This document shows, piece after piece, positions 21,660-64,000 of a stretch of 64,000 nucleotides of DNA. Origin of the DNA: Pseudomonas viridiflava (lineage in GTDB: Bacteria; Pseudomonadota; Gammaproteobacteria; Pseudomonadales; Pseudomonadaceae); contig NZ_UPSE01000161.1 in the NCBI RefSeq assembly GCF_900573885.1, positions 186,001 through 250,000 on the forward strand. The letters run 5' to 3'. Position 1 is the first letter of the stretch, and each line of letters opens with the position of its first letter. A program made the translations under genes and the position numbers. The notes beneath the pieces are model-generated. The model made no database searches. It saw nothing but the letters and a program-made list of their open reading frames with translations, and was not told where the DNA came from.

Positions 21660-22262
21660 TCAAGGCTTCAACCCATCAAACAACGTCTGCGTCATCTGCC
21701 GAATACGTTGCGCGTGGGCGTCGAAGTCGGGCACGTCGGCTTGCACCAGACGCATGAACAGCATGGAGCTGTAGTCGTTGAGGAAGTAGGCGACGAAGTC
21801 GACGTCCACGGTGTTGCTGAGCATTTTTTTACTTTGCAGTTCGCGCAGCAGGTTGGCGATTTCGACGATCAGGCCGGCGTTCATGTCGGTGAACTGCCCG
21901 GCGGGTTCGTTGAGCAGGCCCAGGGGCAAAAGCTCGCGCCAGATGGCGGGCGGCAGTACGTTCAGTTCGTGGCGCACGATCAGCGACTCGAGGTGGCACA
22001 TGGCGTCCACGGCGTTATCGAAGTCGGGGATCTGCGAGCGTGCGTCGATGATGGCTTGCTTGTCCGCGTGCTCGACCAGGGCCAGGAGAATTTCCTGTTT
22101 GCTGCCGAAGTAGTTGAACACGGTGGGCGTCGACACCCCGGCCTGCACGGCAATCTGTTCCACCGTGGTGGCAGCAAAGCCTTGGGTCTCGAACAGCGCG
22201 AGCGCCGCTGCGACTATCGCTTCCCTGCGCTGTTCTTTTTGTCGCTGCCGTAATCCTGTCAC
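21660..22262 (-). CDS. TetR-family transcriptional regulator
   Basis: 200 residues. The N-terminal helix-turn-helix is typical (REAIVAAALALFETQGFAATTVEQIAVQAGVSTPTVFNYFGSK, residues 13-55); the C-terminal ligand domain is divergent. It is transcribed away from the NylB-like operon across 129 bases, so that operon is its probable target. The 3' end has no obvious terminator. The ligand cannot be inferred; the neighbouring genes suggest an amide, ester or polyamine-like compound. Confidence 0.92.
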   Translation of the reverse strand: MTGLRQRQKEQRREAIVAAALALFETQGFAATTVEQIAVQAGVSTPTVFNYFGSKQEILLALVEHADKQAIIDARSQIPDFDNAVDAMCHLESLIVRHELNVLPPAIWRELLPLGLLNEPAGQFTDMNAGLIVEIANLLRELQSKKMLSNTVDVDFVAYFLNDYSSMLFMRLVQADVPDFDAHAQRIRQMTQTLFDGLKP

Positions 22263-22326: not shown

Positions 22327-22362
22327 TTTTTAGTTGACTATAAAAATTTATATGAATAAAAC
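22327..22362 (+). promoter_or_regulatory. Promoter of the NylB-like operon with overlapping palindrome
   Basis: TTGACT (22334-22339), 17-base spacer, TAAAAC (22357-22362) is a plausible sigma-70 promoter 30 bases ahead of the ATG. An 18-bp inverted repeat, TTTTTAGT-TG-ACTATAAA-like with 7 of 8 pairs (22327-22344), covers the -35 box. That is where a TetR repressor would bind. Confidence 0.55.
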
Positions 22363-22391
22363 ATGTCATCGCCAACGACGAGACATGCCCC

Positions 22392-23624
22392 ATGAACAGC
22401 GATTTCACCCAGGCCTTGCTGGGTGCTTATGAAGACGGAGCGCCGCCCGCTGCGCCCTTGATGGAAGGCTTTCCTCCGGCTGCCGAACACCGCGTAACGT
22501 GGCACAACTTCATGACCCCGCCGCACAACCGCTGGGCGTTTCACAACCTGGGGCGCATTCGGCCAAGTATCACCGTTGAGCGTGGCGCAGCGCCCTGCTC
22601 GCCATTGCCCGCGGCAACCCGGCCAATGGGCGACTTCCAGTTCGAAAGCGCCGCCGGCCAGCAGGTCACCCTGCAAGCCCACCTCGACGCCAGCTGCACC
22701 GATGGCTGGCTGGTGATGAAAAACGGCGCCGTGGTGCAAGAGCAGTACTTCAACGGCCATGAGGCGCACAAACGCCACATCATGTTTTCCGTCACCAAAT
22801 CGCTGATCGGCGTGCTCGCCGAAGCCATGGTAGGCGCTGGCGAGCTGCGTAACGAAGCCCTGGCCAGCCACTATGTGCCCGAACTCGACGGCAGCGCTTT
22901 TGGGGACGCCACGGTTCGCCAGTTGCTAGACATGGCAGTGGCCATCGATTACGACGAAGTCTACGACGACCCGCTCTCCGGCAGCTCGCAGTTCGGCTAC
23001 GCCTGCGGGCTGACCGTGCCGCCGCCCGGTCTCGACGTCAGCCAGTCGCTCTACGAATACCTGCCGGCAACGCGCAAAAACGGCGAACACGGCGGCTTCT
23101 TCCACTACGTAACGGCCACCACCGAAGCCTTGGCATGGGTCATGGAACGGGCCAGCGGCCGCAGCTGTGCCGAGCATCTGCGCGATGTCTGGCAAGGGCT
23201 TGGCTGCGAGCGCGACGGCTATTTTGTGGCAGACCCATGGGGCCGCAATGTTGCCGGTGCCGGCTTCAACGCCACGCTGCGAGACATGGCGCGTTTCGGC
23301 TCGTTGCTGCTGGCCAGGGGCGAGGCTCAGGGGCGGCAGCTAATTCCGGCAGCGGCGATCGACTCCGTGCTGCAAGGCGGCGACCCGGCCATTTATGCGG
23401 CGAACGAAGACTTCGCCCTGTGGAGCCCGGGCGCCACGTACAAAAGCCAGTGGTACGTGTACCCGAACGAAGCGCTGCTGGCGGTGGGCATCCATGGGCA
23501 GATTCTGTATGTCGACTTTGCTCAGCAGGTGGTCATCGTCAAGCAATCGTCCTTGCCGATTGCCGAAAGCGTGCTGGACGTCGACACCCTGCGCCTGATC
23601 CGATCCCTGGCCCTCGCGCTGTAG
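22392..23624 (+). CDS. Serine hydrolase, beta-lactamase fold, NylB-like amidase
   Basis: 410 residues, no signal peptide. The class-C beta-lactamase/EstB-type catalytic motif is S133-V-T-K136; the general-base Tyr is probably Y239 (FHYVTATTEALAW), and GIHGQ (366-370) replaces the KTG box. From memory the sequence resembles 6-aminohexanoate-dimer hydrolase NylB across its length: PPHNRWAF, LDMAVAIDYDEVYDDP, SQWYVYPNE, GIHGQILYVD and IVKQSS all have close counterparts. NylB hydrolyses linear amide dimers. The natural substrate here is unknown. It is the first gene of the operon, 19 bases ahead of the binding-protein gene. Confidence 0.87.
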   Translation: MNSDFTQALLGAYEDGAPPAAPLMEGFPPAAEHRVTWHNFMTPPHNRWAFHNLGRIRPSITVERGAAPCSPLPAATRPMGDFQFESAAGQQVTLQAHLDASCTDGWLVMKNGAVVQEQYFNGHEAHKRHIMFSVTKSLIGVLAEAMVGAGELRNEALASHYVPELDGSAFGDATVRQLLDMAVAIDYDEVYDDPLSGSSQFGYACGLTVPPPGLDVSQSLYEYLPATRKNGEHGGFFHYVTATTEALAWVMERASGRSCAEHLRDVWQGLGCERDGYFVADPWGRNVAGAGFNATLRDMARFGSLLLARGEAQGRQLIPAAAIDSVLQGGDPAIYAANEDFALWSPGATYKSQWYVYPNEALLAVGIHGQILYVDFAQQVVIVKQSSLPIAESVLDVDTLRLIRSLALAL

Positions 23625-23643
23625 CCCGCCTTTAGGAGTTGCC

Positions 23644-24747
23644 ATGAAACACGTGCTGAAACACTGCTTGATCGGGCTGCTGCTAAGCGGCGTCAGTGTC
23701 GCCGCGAACGCTGAGAAAACCGGCGGCGAGCTGCGTATCTACAACTGGATCGAATACCTGCCCAAAGACGTGCTGCAGGACTTCAAAGACCAGACCGGCA
23801 TCAGCGTGCTGTACGACGTATTCGACAGCCCGCAAACCCTTGAGGCGAAGCTGCTCACCGGCTCGGCTGGCTACGACGTCGCGTTTCCCAGCAGCAGCCA
23901 GTTGCCCAACCTGATCAACGCCAAGGCTCTGCAACCGCTGGACCGCGAGCAACTGCCGCATTGGCAGCAGCTCGACCCGGCATTCATGGCTCAGCGTCAG
24001 CAACTGGACCCGGGCAGCCGCTACGCCGTGCCTTACCTGTGGGGCAGCACGCTGCTCGGCTACAACAAGGCCAAGGTGGAAGCGGTGCTGGGCAAAGATG
24101 TCGACATGCGCGACTACGACCTGCTGTTCAAGCCCGAGAACATTGCCAAGCTCAGCCAGTGCGGCGTGGCCATTCTCGATAGCCCCGACGAAGTGGTGCC
24201 GATCGCCCTGCACTACCTCGGCCTCAACCCCAGCAGCGACAAACCCGAGGACTTCGCCAAGGCCGAAGCGTTGTTGAAATCCATCCGCCCCTACGTGCGC
24301 TATTTCAATTCGGCCAAGTACCCGCAAGACCTCGCCAACGGCGATATCTGCCTGGCGCTGGGCTGGTCGGGCGGCATGCTGGCGGCACGCAACATGGCGC
24401 TGGCGGCGAACAACGGCATCGACATCCGCATGGCCTTGCCACGTCAGGGCACGCTGCAATGGTCAGACGACATGGTGATTCCCGCCACGGCAAAAAACAT
24501 CAAACAGGCCCATGCCTTCATCGACTTCCTGCTGCAACCGGAAGTGATCGCGCGCATCACCAACCAGATTGGCTACCCCAATCCCAATCCAGCCAGCACG
24601 CCGCTGATCAACCCTGAGCTGCTGACGGAGAAAAACCTGTTCGTACCCGAAGCCGACCGCCATTTGCTGTTCCAGATCGAGCCGCCGAAAAGGGCCGCGC
24701 AGCGTTTGCTGACCCGGCTGTGGAACCGGATTCGCTCCGACGCCTGA
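23644..24747 (+). CDS. Periplasmic binding protein, polyamine (PotF/SpuD) family
   Basis: 367 residues: signal peptide (LLLSGVSVAANAEK), then ELRIYNWIEYLPKDVLQDFKDQTGI, the hallmark opening of polyamine-binding proteins. PSSSQLPNLI, YAVPYLWGSTLLGYN, and DICLALGWSGG follow the PotF/SpuD pattern, including aromatic and acidic residues of the amine site. No ABC ATPase or permease gene is next to it, so it either borrows a transporter encoded elsewhere or acts as a sensor. It has a good ribosome site (TTAGGAG). It probably shares a transcript with the upstream NylB-like gene. Confidence 0.88.
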   Translation: MKHVLKHCLIGLLLSGVSVAANAEKTGGELRIYNWIEYLPKDVLQDFKDQTGISVLYDVFDSPQTLEAKLLTGSAGYDVAFPSSSQLPNLINAKALQPLDREQLPHWQQLDPAFMAQRQQLDPGSRYAVPYLWGSTLLGYNKAKVEAVLGKDVDMRDYDLLFKPENIAKLSQCGVAILDSPDEVVPIALHYLGLNPSSDKPEDFAKAEALLKSIRPYVRYFNSAKYPQDLANGDICLALGWSGGMLAARNMALAANNGIDIRMALPRQGTLQWSDDMVIPATAKNIKQAHAFIDFLLQPEVIARITNQIGYPNPNPASTPLINPELLTEKNLFVPEADRHLLFQIEPPKRAAQRLLTRLWNRIRSDA

Positions 24748-25029
24748 GGCCGCGCCGAGCCTGACCCTGCACCGATCCGCTCATTAACCTGCAAACGGAG
24801 AACGCCAGCACCCACTACCCGCAACCTCACCTGCAACACCGAGCGACGCCCCTTCGTACAAGAAAAATTTCGACTCGAGTCTTTCGAGCCGGCGGGGTCG
24901 TTTTGCCCGAAAAAAAAATAAAAGCGCTCAACGAAGCGCGGCGATGACTCATCGCGAGCTGCACCCAAAACAACAGCAACCAGCGGTTTTTTCTGCCACA
25001 TCAATCACAACAACACGGAGCAGAAACAC

Positions 25030-25824
25030 ATGAACACACTCATCAAGTGGAGCCTTGCGAGCGCCGCCCTGAGTTTTTCACTCACCAGCCACGCCATCGA
25101 CCTGACCCCCGAGGTAATGCTGGATCTAACCGTCATTGCAGCAAGCGACTACCGCGTCGGCGGTTTCTCTCTGACCCAGGGCGACCCGGTGCTGCAAACC
25201 GTCGCCAATCTGGTTCACAAGCCCTCTGGCGTGTTTGCCGGCGTGTTCACCAGTAACGTCGATTTCGGTACCGACACCCGCCGTGAATTCGACTACTTCC
25301 TCGGCATCGCCCGGCCGCTCAGTGAAAACACCCGGTTCTCGCTGGCGTATGTCGCCTACGACTACCCGAAAGACAGCTGGGTGAACTTCCACGAGTGGGT
25401 CGGCACCTTCAGCTACAAGGGCGCGACAGCCGGCTTCAAATACACCAACGACCTGCAAAACCCACCCGCCCTCGAGGCCCTCGCCGCACAGCTGGCGCCG
25501 CTGGGTATCAAGGTTCCGGAGCGCGACAACGACCGGCTCATTACCTGGGTGGAATACACCCAGCCGATGCCCTACCAGACCCTGCTGAACGTGCGTTACG
25601 GCTACAGCGACACCCACGATGAAATGGCCTACCGCGACGGCAGCGGCGACTATCGCAGCACCTACTACGACTGGAGCGTGGCCCTCAGCAAGAAGATGTT
25701 TGGCCTCGACTGGAAGGCCACCTACATCGACACCGATCTGTCGCAAGCTGAATGCATGTCAGCCTTCGGCCGCGCCGGCGAATGCTCGGCCACGGTCGTG
25801 GCATCGGTTTCCAAAAACTTCTAA
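25030..25824 (+). CDS. TorF-like outer-membrane porin (Gcw_chp family)
   Basis: 264 residues: signal peptide ending SHAID, then alternating beta-strand segments with aromatic girdles (VIAASDYRVGGFSLTQGDPVLQ, ARPLSENTRFSLAYVAYDYP, FSYKGATAGFKYTND, NVRYGYSDTHDEM) and a C-terminal Phe (VASVSKNF), as in outer-membrane barrels. The family is annotated TorF/Gcw_chp, putative porins. It presumably admits the compound processed by the neighbouring secreted hydrolase. It is separated from the binding-protein gene by 282 bases, in which a GC-rich hairpin-like stretch but no gene is seen, so it might have its own promoter. Confidence 0.8.
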   Translation: MNTLIKWSLASAALSFSLTSHAIDLTPEVMLDLTVIAASDYRVGGFSLTQGDPVLQTVANLVHKPSGVFAGVFTSNVDFGTDTRREFDYFLGIARPLSENTRFSLAYVAYDYPKDSWVNFHEWVGTFSYKGATAGFKYTNDLQNPPALEALAAQLAPLGIKVPERDNDRLITWVEYTQPMPYQTLLNVRYGYSDTHDEMAYRDGSGDYRSTYYDWSVALSKKMFGLDWKATYIDTDLSQAECMSAFGRAGECSATVVASVSKNF

Positions 25825-25845
25825 CCAACCCGGGACAGTTCGCTC

Positions 25846-27711
25846 ATGTACTCGACGTATCTGCAACACCCGCTGCGCTGCGGCGCATTGAGCCTGGCCT
25901 TGCTGCTTGGCACCCACGGCGTGGCCATGGCCCAGGCGCCTGAAGACGAAGGCATGCCACCGTCCGATCGCAGCTTCCAGGCGTTCTGGGGCAAACGCGT
26001 GACCGGTTACCTGAAAGCCGCCGACGGCACCGAGCTGCGCTACTCCGTGCTGCTGCCCAAAGGCGAGGGAAAATTCCCGGTGCTGGTGCGCTACAGCGGC
26101 TACGACTCGGGCAGCATCGGCGGCCCGGCCTACCTGGGCGACAACGAAACCTTCTCCGTCGCCATGGACAAGGAACTGGTCGAAAAGGGCTATGCCGTCA
26201 TGGGCGTGCAAGCCCGTGGCACCGGTTGCTCGCAGGGCACCTTCGACTTCCTCGGCCCGCATTACGGCACCGATGGCCGCGACGCGATTGAATTCGCCGC
26301 GAACCAGAGCTGGTCCGACGGCAACATCGGCATGTTCGGCTGGTCGTGGGCCGGCATGTCGCAATTGATGACCGCCGAAGAACAGCCCAGGCACCTCAAA
26401 GCCATCGCCCCCGGCATGGTGCTCGGCGATGCCCGCGGCGACAGCTGGGCGCCTGGCGGTGTGCCGAACCAGGAATTCACCACCACCTGGCACTGGTTTG
26501 TCGACCAGCGCTGGCAAGCCGTGAAAGCCAGCGCCGAAGCGGAAAAAGACCAGCGCTGCCTGGCGCAAGTGGCGCAAAACCAGGCCAAGGTGGTCAGCAC
26601 CTCGCTGATGTACAACCTGCTGCGCCACCCGCTGCGCGATGAATGGACCGAGCAGCGCAGCAGCCCGCGAGACCGCGCGGCGCAGATCAAGGTGCCGGTG
26701 TTGTCCATGCAAGCCTGGCAAGACGAAGCGGTGCTGGCGCGCGAGGGCTACTACCAGGAACGTCTCGACCCCAAACAGCTGTGGATGGTGCAAGCCAGCG
26801 GCGGCCACAACCTGTATGAGTCCGAGCGTTTTCGCAAAAAACTCGGGGCCTTCCTCGACCATTTCGTCAAAGGTGAGAACAACGGTTTCGAGAAAACCCC
26901 GCGACTGGAAATGTGGCAGGAAACGGTGGCGGACAACCGCAACGGCCGCCATGAACCCAACGAAACCGCACGGCCAACCTGGACCATCGAGCGCGACAGC
27001 TACCCGCTGAAACCCAAGCCGGTCACCTTTGCCCTCAGCGAAAAAGGCCAGTTGATCGAGAACGGCAAAGGCAGCGGTGCGCCGGATGGCTACAACTATC
27101 CGATTCCCGGGCCAGACGTGAACACCTTCCTCAAAGACAACGCCTGGGGTGCGCAGCATCCAATCTGGCGCGAAGGCAGCCTGGCATACACCAGCGCGCC
27201 GCTGACGCGTGATTTTCTAAGCTACGGCACCGCAAGCGCAGACCTTTGGGTGACCACCTTTCTTGCCCCGGACACCGACCTGCAAGTGACCGTCACCGAA
27301 GTGCGTCCCGACGGCCAGGAGGTGTATGTGCAGCGTGGCTGGCTGCGCATGTCCGCCCGCAAACTGGATGACGCCCGCTCCACCGAACTGCGCCCCTGGC
27401 TGCTCGACACACCGGACTCGGTGCAACCGATGCTGCCCAATGTGCCGACACTGGGCCGGATGGAAATTCCGCCGTTTTCCCACCCGTTCCGCAAAGGCTC
27501 GCAACTGCGTATCTGGATCGACGCGCCGTCGCGCACCGGTGGTTATGGCTTCGATTATTTCTCCATCCCCAGCCGCAACAGCGTGCTGCACGACGACGCA
27601 CATCCGTCGCGGCTGGTGCTGGGCGAGCTGACCGGCGTGGCCATTCCGAGCGCCCTGCCGGCGTGCGACACCCTGCTTAAACAGCCATGCCGACCTGACC
27701 CCCTGAAGTGA
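25846..27711 (+). CDS. Secreted CocE/NonD-family hydrolase (S15-like)
   Basis: 621 residues with a signal peptide (LLLGTHGVAMAQ, about 30 residues). The alpha/beta-hydrolase domain has RYSGYDS, the oxyanion-type VQARGTGCSQG, and nucleophile elbow GWSWAG with Ser167 (family GxSYxG); the Asp-His pair is likely in AWQDEAVLA and SGGHNLYE. The C-terminal jelly-roll typical of X-Pro dipeptidyl-peptidase S15/cocaine esterase is present (DLWVTTFLAPDTDLQVTVTE, RIWIDAPSRTG). It should cleave esters or amides in the periplasm or outside. It follows the porin gene by 21 bases. An extra Cys pair near the C-terminus may form a disulfide. Confidence 0.9.
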   Translation: MYSTYLQHPLRCGALSLALLLGTHGVAMAQAPEDEGMPPSDRSFQAFWGKRVTGYLKAADGTELRYSVLLPKGEGKFPVLVRYSGYDSGSIGGPAYLGDNETFSVAMDKELVEKGYAVMGVQARGTGCSQGTFDFLGPHYGTDGRDAIEFAANQSWSDGNIGMFGWSWAGMSQLMTAEEQPRHLKAIAPGMVLGDARGDSWAPGGVPNQEFTTTWHWFVDQRWQAVKASAEAEKDQRCLAQVAQNQAKVVSTSLMYNLLRHPLRDEWTEQRSSPRDRAAQIKVPVLSMQAWQDEAVLAREGYYQERLDPKQLWMVQASGGHNLYESERFRKKLGAFLDHFVKGENNGFEKTPRLEMWQETVADNRNGRHEPNETARPTWTIERDSYPLKPKPVTFALSEKGQLIENGKGSGAPDGYNYPIPGPDVNTFLKDNAWGAQHPIWREGSLAYTSAPLTRDFLSYGTASADLWVTTFLAPDTDLQVTVTEVRPDGQEVYVQRGWLRMSARKLDDARSTELRPWLLDTPDSVQPMLPNVPTLGRMEIPPFSHPFRKGSQLRIWIDAPSRTGGYGFDYFSIPSRNSVLHDDAHPSRLVLGELTGVAIPSALPACDTLLKQPCRPDPLK

Positions 27712-27776
27712 ACCGAAACGCCATCGGGCGGTGGCGCCCGTTGGCTTTTAATTTTGAAATCGAAGGAGCGTTACCC

Positions 27777-28364
27777 ATGAAATTGTCCCGCACATTGCTG
27801 CACACCTGCACCGGTCTGGCCCTGCTGCTGGCCGCAACAGTCGGCCACACCGCCGAGCTCAAAGAGAAGATTGCCAATCGCCTGACCAACGATCTGGTGC
27901 TGCAAATAAACGTACAACTCGGCCCGCGCGAAGAGATGGGCAAAGGCCCGGATGGCACGCGAGTGAACTACCCCATCGCCGGCGGCACGTTCGTGGGCAA
28001 AGACATCGACGGCAAACCCATGAAAGGCACTGTTGTGCCCGGCGGTGCGGACATGTCGGTGATGCGCGAAGACGGCGTCACCCGCATCAACGCCCTGTAC
28101 CGGCTGAAAACCGATGACGGTCAGATCATCATCATCGACAACGCCGGCATCTGGCGCTTGAACGAATCGGGCCTGGCCAAACAAGCCAAGGGCCTGGAGT
28201 TCAAAGACATGAAAGAGACCGACTTCTACTGCCGCACCGTGCCGGCTTTCAAAACCCAACCGGGCAAGCACGCCTGGCTCAACGACTACATTTTCGTCGG
28301 CACCATCGACGGCGTCAGCGAGCATGAAGTGCTGATCAGCGTATACCGCATGGCCGGGGCGTAA
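27777..28364 (+). CDS. Secreted DUF3237 protein
   Basis: 195 residues starting MKLSRTLLHTCTG, with a signal peptide ending GHTAEL and a strong ribosome site (AAGGAG). The DUF3237 beta-barrel is recognisable: LVLQINVQLGPREEMG, NYPIAGGTFVGKDIDG, GTVVPGGADMSVMREDG, and a C-terminal EVLISVYRM. DUF3237 proteins often sit beside hydrolases for aromatic or amide compounds; none has a firmly established reaction to my knowledge. It is the last gene of the operon, followed by a terminator. Confidence 0.85.
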   Translation: MKLSRTLLHTCTGLALLLAATVGHTAELKEKIANRLTNDLVLQINVQLGPREEMGKGPDGTRVNYPIAGGTFVGKDIDGKPMKGTVVPGGADMSVMREDGVTRINALYRLKTDDGQIIIIDNAGIWRLNESGLAKQAKGLEFKDMKETDFYCRTVPAFKTQPGKHAWLNDYIFVGTIDGVSEHEVLISVYRMAGA

Positions 28365-28383
28365 GCGTCAGTCCGCCCGCATG

Positions 28384-28407
28384 AACGCGGCTTCGGCCGC
28401 GTTTTTT
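28384..28407 (+). terminator. Terminator after the DUF3237 gene
   Basis: AACGCGGC-TTCG-GCCGCGTT followed by a run of T, a classic stable UUCG tetraloop terminator that closes the NylB-like operon. Confidence 0.93.
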
Positions 28408-61497: not shown

Positions 61498-62898
61498 ATG
61501 ACTGCCAGTGGCATCAGTGACCGCGTAATCGAACAATTTGCCGCCCAGGAGCGTGCGCGTTTTCTCGCCGAGAATCCCAAGTCCGTTGCCCTCGCCGAAC
61601 GGGCACGCGGTTCGTTGTTTGGCGGTGTGCCGATGCACTGGATGAGCGATTGGTCGACGCCTTCGCCACTGTTTGTCAGCCGCGCGCAGGGCGCCCGGTT
61701 TTATGATGTCGACGGCCATGAGTACGTGGATTTCTGCCTTGGCGATACCGGCAGTATGTTTGGCCATTCGCCCGCCCCAATTGCCCGCGCACTGGCCGAG
61801 CAGGGCGCCAACGGCCTGACCACCATGCTGCCCGGCGAAGACGCCGTGGTAGTCGGCGAATTGCTGGCCGAGCGCTTCGGCTTGCCCTATTGGCAAGTGG
61901 CGACCACCGCCACCGACGCCAACCGCTTTGTGGTGCGCTGGGCCCGCGCAATCACCCAGCGCAAAACCTTGCTGGTGTTCGACGGCTGCTACCACGGCAC
62001 CGTCGATGACGTGATGGTGCGCTGCCAGGACGGCCGCACCGTGCACCGCCCCGGTTTGCTGGGCCAAGCGTATGACCTCACCGAACACAGCCGCAGCGTG
62101 CCGTTCAACGACCTCGCCGCCTTGGAAGCGGCGCTGCAACGCGAAGACGTCGCCGCCGTGCTCTGCGAACCGGCGATGACCAACATCGGCATGGTGCTGC
62201 CCGCGCCGGGCTATCTGGCCAAGCTTCGCGAGCTCACGCGCCGTTACGGCACGCTGCTGATCATTGATGAAACCCACACCATTTCCACCGGCCCTGGCGG
62301 CTGCACCCGTGTGTGGAACCTGGAGCCAGACTTCATCACCCTCGGCAAACCCATTGCCGGCGGCGTGCCGTGTTCGGTGTATGGCTGCACCGCCGCCATG
62401 GCCCAGGCCATGATCGAGGCGCGCAGCCGCGCCAGCAGTCACGGCCAAAGCCACGGCCACAGCGGCATGGGCACCACGTTGTCAGCCAATGCGCTGGCGA
62501 TGCACTGCATGCGCGTCAACCTTCAAGAGGTAATGACTGAACGCGCCTACGCCCACATGTTGCCGCTGGCCGAGCGCCTGGCGCAGGGCTTTGCCGCGCT
62601 GATCGGCAAGCACCAGCTGGCCTGGTCGGTGACGCAGTTGGGCGCGCGCTGCGAGTTCCAGTTCTGCACGCGCTTGCCCACAACCGGCGCTGAAGCCGAA
62701 GCGGCGTTTCACGATGCCCTGCAAATGGCCCTGCACCTGTACCTGATCAACCGCGGCATTCTGATCACGCCGTTCCACAACATGACCTTGTGCTGCCCGG
62801 ACACCACGGCCGCTGACGTCGACCGCCTGCTCGCCACCCTCGATCAGGCCCTTACCGAATTGCTGGCACTGCCCGGCGCTCGCGAAGAGAGCAGGTAA
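61498..62898 (+). CDS. Class III aminotransferase (GSA-aminomutase-like)
   Basis: 466 residues from MTASGISDRVIEQFA. PLP enzyme with LGKPIAGGVPCSVYG carrying the PLP lysine, and IIDETHTISTGPGG (Asp-Glu cofactor site), DGCYHGTVDDV and PGEDAVVVGELLAERFGLPYWQV. Similar to glutamate-1-semialdehyde aminomutases and to omega-amino-acid:pyruvate aminotransferases; the substrate is unknown. It overlaps the start of the GS-like gene by one base (TAATG), so they form an operon. Confidence 0.9.
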   Translation: MTASGISDRVIEQFAAQERARFLAENPKSVALAERARGSLFGGVPMHWMSDWSTPSPLFVSRAQGARFYDVDGHEYVDFCLGDTGSMFGHSPAPIARALAEQGANGLTTMLPGEDAVVVGELLAERFGLPYWQVATTATDANRFVVRWARAITQRKTLLVFDGCYHGTVDDVMVRCQDGRTVHRPGLLGQAYDLTEHSRSVPFNDLAALEAALQREDVAAVLCEPAMTNIGMVLPAPGYLAKLRELTRRYGTLLIIDETHTISTGPGGCTRVWNLEPDFITLGKPIAGGVPCSVYGCTAAMAQAMIEARSRASSHGQSHGHSGMGTTLSANALAMHCMRVNLQEVMTERAYAHMLPLAERLAQGFAALIGKHQLAWSVTQLGARCEFQFCTRLPTTGAEAEAAFHDALQMALHLYLINRGILITPFHNMTLCCPDTTAADVDRLLATLDQALTELLALPGAREESR

Positions 62899-64000
62899 TG
62901 ACCATGGACTTTGCCAACATTCAGGAAGCCCACGATTTCCTCGCCGCCAACCCGCAGGTGCGCAGCATCGAAGTGTTCCTTATCGACAGCAACGGCGTGC
63001 CGCGGGGCAAGCTGTTGCACCGCGACGAGCTGCTGGCGATGTACGCCAACGGCCGGCCGCTGCCGAGCACCATTCTTGGCCTGACCATCAATGGCGACGA
63101 CGTCGAAGACACCGGTCTGGTCTGGGAAGTGGGCGACGCCGATTGCTGGACCTACCCGCTGCCCGGCAGCCTGACCCTGCAACCGTGGCGCACGCCGCCC
63201 ACCGGGCAGGTGCAAGTAAGCATGCACCCGCAGCAAGGCCTGCCCGCCGCCGTGGCCGATCCGCGTCATGTGTTGGTGAAGGTGATCGAGCGTTTGAAAG
63301 CGGATGGCTTTTATCCGGTGATGGCGGTGGAGCTGGAGTTTTACCTGCTCGATCGCGAGCGTGGCGAGAACGGTCGGCCGCTGCCGGCGCGCCAGGCGAA
63401 CGGCGCCCGCCCGCACGCCACTCAGGTGTACGGCGTGTACGAGCTGGAACAGTTGCAGCCGTTTTTGAATGACCTGTACGACGCGTGTGAAGCCCAAGGT
63501 TTGCCGGCGCGCACGGCCATTTCCGAGTACGCGCCCGGGCAGGTGGAAATTACCCTGGAACACCGCTTCGACGCGCTGCAAGCCATCGATGAGGGCGTGC
63601 GCTACAAGCGCCTGGTCAAGGGCGTGGCCAACAAACATGGCTTGCAGGCGTGCTTTATGGCCAAGCCATTTGGCGACCTGGCCGGCACCGGCATGCACAT
63701 GCACGTCAGCCTGGCTGACGCCGACGGCAATAACCTCTACGCCAGCGAGGATCCGGCCGGCACGCCGCTGTTGCGCCACTCCATCGGCGGCATGATGCAC
63801 ACGCTGCTCGATTCGCTTGCGCTGTTCTGCCCCAACGCCAACTCGTTCCGCCGCTTCCAGGCCAACAGCTATGCGCCGCTGGCGCTGACGTGGGGCATCA
63901 ATAACCGCACCGTGTCGCTGCGGGTTCCAGGCGGGCCGGCAGCGAGCCGGCATATCGAGCACCGCATTTGCGGCGCCGATGCCAACCCGTATCTGGCGGC
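62898..64000 (+). CDS. Glutamine synthetase-like gamma-glutamyl ligase, cut by window end
   Basis: ATG 62898 overlaps the aminotransferase stop. The translation is open to the window end (367 codons): MTMDFANIQEAHDFLAANPQ, VFLIDSNGVPRGK, MAVELEFYLLDRE (first metal Glu residues), SEYAPGQVEITLEH, GTGMHMHVSLAD (His), NSFRRFQANSYAP and NRTVSLRVPGGPAASRHIEHRI. This is the PuuA/SpuI-type glutamine-synthetase fold that gamma-glutamylates polyamines or other amines. Family length is about 450, so the last 80-90 residues lie outside. With the GntR and aminotransferase genes it suggests an amine catabolic operon. Confidence 0.92.
   Translation, partial: MTMDFANIQEAHDFLAANPQVRSIEVFLIDSNGVPRGKLLHRDELLAMYANGRPLPSTILGLTINGDDVEDTGLVWEVGDADCWTYPLPGSLTLQPWRTPPTGQVQVSMHPQQGLPAAVADPRHVLVKVIERLKADGFYPVMAVELEFYLLDRERGENGRPLPARQANGARPHATQVYGVYELEQLQPFLNDLYDACEAQGLPARTAISEYAPGQVEITLEHRFDALQAIDEGVRYKRLVKGVANKHGLQACFMAKPFGDLAGTGMHMHVSLADADGNNLYASEDPAGTPLLRHSIGGMMHTLLDSLALFCPNANSFRRFQANSYAPLALTWGINNRTVSLRVPGGPAASRHIEHRICGADANPYLA

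Follow-up and report, generated by a model that had tools for sequence, protein, structure and literature searches.

The best-described relative of the genes studied here is the pme locus of Pseudomonas fluorescens SBW25, which was first characterised in 2025 (PMC12642758). This locus (PFLU3304-3311) includes genes for a short-chain dehydrogenase/reductase (SDR), an aldehyde dehydrogenase (ALDH), a sigma-54 regulator, a TetR regulator, a polyamine-type solute-binding protein (SBP), a hypothetical protein and Pme (PFLU3311), a NylB-like serine hydrolase and proven phenylpropanoid methyl esterase (PMC12642758). Pme cleaves the methyl esters of p-coumarate and ferulate as well as methyl phloretate (MHPP). 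A pme deletion strain no longer grows on MHPP or methyl p-coumarate, and MHPP induces the cluster (PMC12642758). The genome of the laboratory strain P. putida KT2440 has no pme (PMC12642758).

Here, we analysed 64,000 nucleotides of Pseudomonas viridiflava DNA (contig NZ_UPSE01000161.1, positions 186,001 to 250,000; called the window below), in which positions 22327-28407 had been read, from the letters alone, as a self-contained and possibly undescribed operon for amide or ester catabolism. The operon is probably a variant (type A) of the Pseudomonas pme locus, serving TetR-controlled uptake and hydrolysis of hydroxycinnamate conjugates. This view is based on conservation of the gene set, linkage to the ech gene (p-hydroxycinnamoyl-CoA hydratase/lyase; HCHL), family and residue comparisons and loss of the Asp247 site in the binding protein, while esterase activity and induction are data of others on the sister form.

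Conservation of the cassette and its relation to pme loci

The operon named in the sequence-only reading is real: all its genes are intact frames, and their families were confirmed. On the forward strand, it contains a NylB-like (Pme-like) serine hydrolase (22392-23624; PF00144, Beta-lactamase), a PotF/SpuE-like periplasmic SBP (23644-24747; SBP_bac_8), a TorF-family outer-membrane channel (25030-25824; Gcw_chp/TIGR02001, 112.6 bits at a cut-off of 47.15), an exported CocE/NonD hydrolase (25846-27711; Peptidase_S15/TIGR00976, 179.1 at a cut-off of 66.3, signal peptide by eye) and a DUF3237 protein (27777-28364; PF11578, signal peptide by eye), whose start at 27777 was picked by eye from the ribosome-binding site. 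A gene for a TetR-family regulator (21660-22262, reverse strand; PF00440) diverges from the operon, outside the interval 22327-28407 and in the position that pmeR has in the sister locus; only matches under the family cut-offs, mostly across the DNA-binding part, were obtained for it.

The gene set of the window recurs as a conserved cassette. When GTDB genomes were scanned with peptide patterns of the window hydrolase, which favour its near relatives, 35 loci were obtained. Flanks of 8 kb were taken, or less at the contig ends met in L048 and L054, and genes were called by a simple codon-usage script with approximate starts and some genes missed (in L086 and L106, later recovered). Eleven loci form type A, with hydrolases 70-92% identical to the window enzyme. 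TetR, hydrolase, SBP, TorF and CocE genes stand in the same order in all 11, and the terminal DUF3237 gene is present in 10; this synteny bears out the claim that the genes belong together, and a layout for stepwise import and cleavage, as first suggested, is supported. About half of the type A loci (5 of 11) contain a further, unexported DUF3237 gene after the SBP gene, which is missing in the window.

The remaining 24 loci are type B, with hydrolases 55-61% identical to the window enzyme. All 24 have an outer-membrane barrel (Alginate_exp by Pfam, in the L043 copy) in place of TorF and CocE and a TetR gene on one or other side; 23 have the SBP, 12 have a DUF3237 match and the other 12 gave none. 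Taken together, the SBP is retained in 34 of the 35 loci and a TetR homologue flanks the cassette, on either side, in 35 of 35. Two genomes contain both types (L039 with L065, and L042 with L044), and hence neither type simply replaces the other. Across the genomes searched, the hydrolase subfamily is nearly confined to Pseudomonas, the exception being Pokkaliibacter (L066). Among 368 other genomes of the class, the hydrolase had no match at E 1e-120 and CocE a single match at E 1e-100 (G173, 40%).

Four type B loci (L057, L059, L061 and L062) show the order SDR, ALDH, sigma-54 regulator, TetR, SBP, barrel and hydrolase, which is that of PFLU3305-3311. Their hydrolases served as stand-ins for PFLU3311, itself absent from our tree. 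A 99/99 branch of this tree puts types A and B opposite NylB and eight distantly related NylB-like proteins of Pseudomonas. The type A enzymes form a single group (100/100), while those of type B are not resolved as one (2 changes). The window enzyme groups with those of the pme loci and separately from NylB and other NylB-like Pseudomonas enzymes. For the core of the cassette, the word undescribed is not supported, since the sister locus has a proven esterase (PMC12642758), and the known substrates of this close homologue go half the way towards overturning the original proposal.

Linkage to hydroxycinnamate genes

In 149 Pseudomonas genomes, the hydrolase subfamily (at least 56% identity) was found in 22 and ech (HCHL, E < 1e-100) in 40. 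The ech gene is present in 21 of the 22 genomes with the enzyme subfamily versus 19 of the 127 without it (Fisher p 1.3e-13, uncorrected for kinship), and the sole miss, G133, is an 88% complete genome. Only 3 of the 24 genomes with nothing but distant NylB-like genes have ech, while it is present in all 19 further genomes tested, which carry 20 of the 35 loci (all 11 type A loci and 9 of the 24 of type B). In eight of the 22 genomes (G031, G136, G130, G101, G070, G141, G006 and G135), ech is 5 to 16 kb away from the hydrolase gene. Ferulate-type genes (HCHL, Fcs, VanAB or an aromatic-acid transporter) flank 13 of the 35 loci, four of the 11 in type A and nine of the 24 in type B. Matches that were weak or of low specificity are left out of this count (AAHS at 30% in L055, VanB at 24% in L063 and OprD alone in L051). 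Representative neighbours were assigned with NCBIfam (p-hydroxycinnamoyl-CoA hydratase/lyase, MhpT-type transporter) and with Pfam (VanA_C). L111, which continues L033, contains ech-vdh-fcs as well.

This linkage points to hydroxycinnamates as the substrate class, and conjugates of the p-coumarate or ferulate type are likely substrates. The claim of a self-contained operon is not supported, for the acid released would seem to depend on fcs-ech-vdh. A gene for a tannase/feruloyl esterase (PF07519) was also observed inside the ech island of the L033 genome (L111:12508-14094).

The pocket of the binding protein

In PotF, one amine of putrescine is held by S38, D39 and D247 and the other by a distal group including E185 and D278; the conservation of D247, D278 and E185 is 96% or higher, for D247 across 250 homologues (PMC8666671). 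The proximal amine site of the window SBP is altered, with I36, E37 and G244 in place of S38, D39 and D247, while the aromatic box and the distal carboxylates are kept (W37, W244, W276, E185, D278). The same pattern is found throughout the cassettes: none of the 35 copies has kept D247 (Gly in 33, Ala in two), and S38 is replaced by Ile or Leu in 34 of 34, whereas E185 and D278 are retained in 35 of 35. Among the SBP paralogues of the window's genome, D247 is kept in 9 of 12, the exceptions being L068, L077 and the distant L079. L068 and L077 each adjoin an acetylpolyamine amidohydrolase-type gene (the neighbour of L068 is Hist_deacetyl by Pfam, and that of L077 is 69% identical to it); in P. 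aeruginosa, enzymes of this type free acetylputrescine and acetylcadaverine (PMC4784309).

For comparison, we surveyed the best 30 AphA-type loci by score (the window's genome included), from matches in 132 of the 149 genomes. An SBP gene is adjacent in 29 of these 30 (29 loci, L115-L144). The 29 proteins are of the PotF family and have without exception lost D247 (to Ser in 27 and Gly in two) and S38 (to Phe or Ala), as the cassette SBP has, and they likewise keep D278 and, in 28 of 29, E185. They differ from the cassette SBP in having Ser rather than Gly at 247 (27 of 29), Phe or Ala rather than Ile at 38 and an unchanged Asp39, and their hydrolase partner comes from a different family. Altered proximal site, kept distal site and the AphA parallel together suggest a ligand that is cationic at one free end and bulky and neutral at the other. 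From these residues, we slightly favour a conjugate partner that carries one positive charge, and the ligand would be an acyl-polyamine in the first place and a choline ester in the second. N-acyl-polyamines had been among the early guesses and fit the SBP best, given the altered pocket and the AphA-linked parallel. D247 loss beside acetylpolyamine amidohydrolases is possibly a general mark of acyl-polyamine binding. In agreement with this, polyamine-type genes lie near some cassettes (gabDT in L033 and L034; a glutamine-synthetase-like gene in L051, L086, L091 and L104).

A choline ester of the sinapine or feruloylcholine type is an unlikely alternative, in which the aromatic box would hold the quaternary ammonium and the Pme-like enzyme would cut the ester. 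Pme is indeed an esterase on hydroxycinnamate esters, and the window SBP keeps the five residues of the aromatic box and distal site for one cationic end while its second amine site is altered. However, the best analogue of the SBP pattern adjoins acyl-polyamine amidohydrolases, and the flanks showed no choline genes, although none were searched by name. In the sinapine literature, no paper matching the full query was found.

A proposed route for hydroxycinnamate conjugates

Phenolamides are widespread plant defence compounds, and those of the feruloyl- or coumaroyl-putrescine type are our leading, though tentative, guess at a specific substrate. The hydroxycinnamate side is well supported; its partner, and an amide as against an ester bond, we infer. 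In the route that we infer for transport, amide cleavage and the DUF3237 step, the conjugate would pass the outer membrane via TorF, and ester conjugates could be cleaved in the periplasm by the exported CocE hydrolase. The PotF-like SBP would bind conjugates that have one cationic end free and pass them to a permease encoded elsewhere, the gene set itself holding no ABC permease or ATPase gene. In the cytoplasm, the Pme-like serine hydrolase would free the hydroxycinnamate for fcs-ech-vdh, and the DUF3237 protein, if it works like the decarboxylases PhcF, PhcG and PinX, would act on the phenylpropanoid moiety.

If true, the cassette supplies candidate genes for bacterial uptake and hydrolysis of phenolamides, it explains the "polyamine" SBP in the SBW25 pme locus even though methyl esters need none, and Asp247 loss becomes a simple sequence rule telling acyl-polyamine binders from polyamine binders. 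A dedicated bacterial phenolamide system, with loss of PotF Asp247 marking binders of one-end-acylated polyamines in general, is conceivable but short of probable. Among the open-licence PubMed Central titles listed by searches on bacterial phenolamide breakdown, none pointed to a bacterial system for phenolamide uptake and hydrolysis, which is no proof of absence.

Several observations weigh against the phenolamide route or against the pme relationship behind it. In random barcode transposon sequencing (RB-TnSeq) of SBW25, the SBP gene and its neighbour PFLU3310 were without defect on the tested phenylpropanoids, TetR mutants lost fitness on methyl esters, unlike those of a simple repressor, and pme transposon mutants gained fitness on MHPP, yet the deletion strain failed to grow (PMC12642758). 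Pme acts on methyl esters, and the accessible part of that report contains no amide test (PMC12642758). Given the two genomes with both types, the substrate of type A may differ from that of Pme. As for genomic context, 22 of the 35 loci are without a ferulate gene in their flanks, and the MarR-ech-vdh-fcs-transporter group of the window's genome is about 145 kb off on the same contig. In this genome (G000), VanA gave no match at E 1e-60, although an empty answer shows little; without VanA, there may be another route for vanillate, or the conjugates served by the cassette may be of the p-coumarate type. Most of the 29 AphA-linked SBPs belong to a single orthologous group, and the polyamine-type neighbours are few, such genes being numerous in Pseudomonas.

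The RB-TnSeq result for the SBP also speaks for a second alternative, just as unlikely as a choline ester, in which the substrates are plain uncharged phenylpropanoid esters (methyl, cell-wall feruloyl or chlorogenate-like) and the SBP serves otherwise or is dispensable. The proven activity and induction of Pme (PMC12642758) agree with it, and so do the presence of CocE and the PF07519 gene in the L111 island. On the other hand, 34 of 35 loci have kept the SBP, and with the same altered pocket, which speaks for selection on a ligand specific to it.

TorF, CocE and DUF3237

The TorF model (mean pLDDT 75.9) forms a barrel with about 12 strands and matches porins. CocE has S15 and PepX_C domains and, by eye, a signal peptide or a lipobox, the latter in six of the 12 type A copies. 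Of 398 Pseudomonas genomes, 11 have relatives of CocE, and nine of these contain the type A cassette and eight a TorF-CocE pair outside the cassette. Six of these eight pairs have DUF3237 alongside, and three adjoin vdh/ech (G134, G525 and G648). Second TorF-CocE-DUF3237 sets without hydrolase or SBP were observed at L085:9473-12681 and L091:8553-11705, and in L104 and L107; those of L091 and L104 adjoin AraC-type, PotF-like and glutamine-synthetase-like genes, and the one in the window's genome lies amid phosphonate-type genes (by eye).

The DUF3237 model (mean pLDDT 86.6) has the UPF0311 fold, with structural matches to UPF0311 and PhnH. At Z 8-10, its matches are a set including dirigent, allene oxide cyclase and Diels-Alderase barrels, which alone show no function; the phenolic acid decarboxylase PadC is not among the matches listed, which excludes nothing. 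PinX, PhcF and PhcG decarboxylate phenylpropanoid dimers, opening a furan ring in the process (PMC12607616, PMC12997858, PMC11323797). Phenylpropanoid dimers (8-5 diferulates, lignan-like compounds) as substrates, with DUF3237 as a ring-opening decarboxylase like these enzymes, are improbable. PinX (DUF3237) and its relatives PhcF and PhcG act on beta-beta and beta-5 dimers, and 10 of 11 type A loci have the terminal DUF3237, but half of the type B loci (12 of 24) gave no DUF3237 match and the likeness to PhcF and PinX is one of domain.

The hydrolase compared with NylB

The likeness to NylB noticed at the outset does extend over the length of the enzyme (1wyb, residues 27-390, E 1.5e-55). The hydrolase has the NylB/beta-lactamase fold with the motif S133-x-x-K136, and it is presumably cytoplasmic, as no signal peptide was seen by eye. 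With NylB (1wyb family) it shares the SxxK motif, Glu168, Tyr170, Tyr215 and full-length homology, but only about 35% identity. NylB positions 112, 115, 168, 170, 181, 215, 266 and 331 are identical across all 36 type A and type B copies. Position 331 is Tyr in all of them, while it is Trp in NylB and the eight distant relatives, and Gly is found at both 181 and 266 in the window and the 35 other copies. We take Asp181 and Asn266 to be required for high activity of NylB on the dimer, but the 1wyb row compared itself carries Gly181 and His266. A nylon-type, linear-amide or oligopeptide pathway with a NylB-like amidase, for which the full-length homology with SxxK and Tyr would speak, is set aside as very improbable, given the low identity, the residues at 181, 266 and 331, the esterase activity of the nearest characterised relative and the genomic linkage to ech.

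Regulation, termination and neighbouring genes

An imperfect palindrome, TTTTTAGT-TG-ACTATAAA, was found by palindrome scan at 22327-22344, where it overlaps a TTGAC box. It is AT-rich, partly conserved and among the best-kept stretches in an alignment of 12 type A intergenic regions; judged from sequence and without a chance control, it is a possible operator. Promoter-like patterns are no commoner than chance in the region (1 found versus 1.7 in shuffles). A terminator scan gave an intrinsic terminator with a TTCG loop and a T run at 28383-28404 on the forward strand, which sits at the operon end and has the longest stem of those found, while terminator-like patterns as a whole (12 versus 9.2 +/- 3.1 in shuffles) are not above chance. 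One shared transcript stays presumed only, because 282 bases separate the SBP and TorF genes (24748-25029, forward strand). The unexported DUF3237 gene of the five type A relatives lies in this gap; no remnant of it was found in the window, where both flanks align to L034 and the gene is missing.

Some neighbouring genes were also observed. In L057, L059, L061 and L062, a sigma-54 activator gene (XylR_N in the L057 copy) and the ALDH and SDR genes adjoin the cassette, and we take them to be like coniferyl alcohol oxidation genes. A methyl-accepting chemotaxis protein gene is directly downstream of the cassette in L035, L036, L039 and L041 and also occurs in L046, L051 and L055; its sensor is sCache_2 in the L036 copy, the only one analysed, and it perhaps serves taxis to the substrate. 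An Amidohydro_3 gene (L039 copy analysed) is next in the same four type A loci. At 61498-64000 of the window, a class III aminotransferase gene is followed by a glutamine-synthetase-like gene (by eye) cut by the window end, a pair possibly of polyamine catabolism.

Comparison with known systems

With CocE cocaine esterase (PDB 3i2f etc.), the window protein shares the Peptidase_S15 and PepX_C architecture, and it was matched over residues 59-244, at about 1e-20. With PhcF, PhcG and PinX, it is the DUF3237 domain (stated for PinX in the accessible text) and a place in phenylpropanoid catabolism that would be common, whereas the window DUF3237 protein has a signal peptide by eye. The closest likeness is to the pme locus: a TetR regulator, a polyamine-type SBP, a NylB-like serine hydrolase and occurrence in ech-carrying genomes, with the hypothetical PFLU3310 occupying the position of the type B barrel. 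The window enzyme is 55-61% identical to the type B copies. Type A differs from the pme locus by TorF, CocE, the exported DUF3237 and another gene order, and it coexists with type B in two genomes. In summary, the enzyme families of the cassette are ordinary, while their assembly is not.

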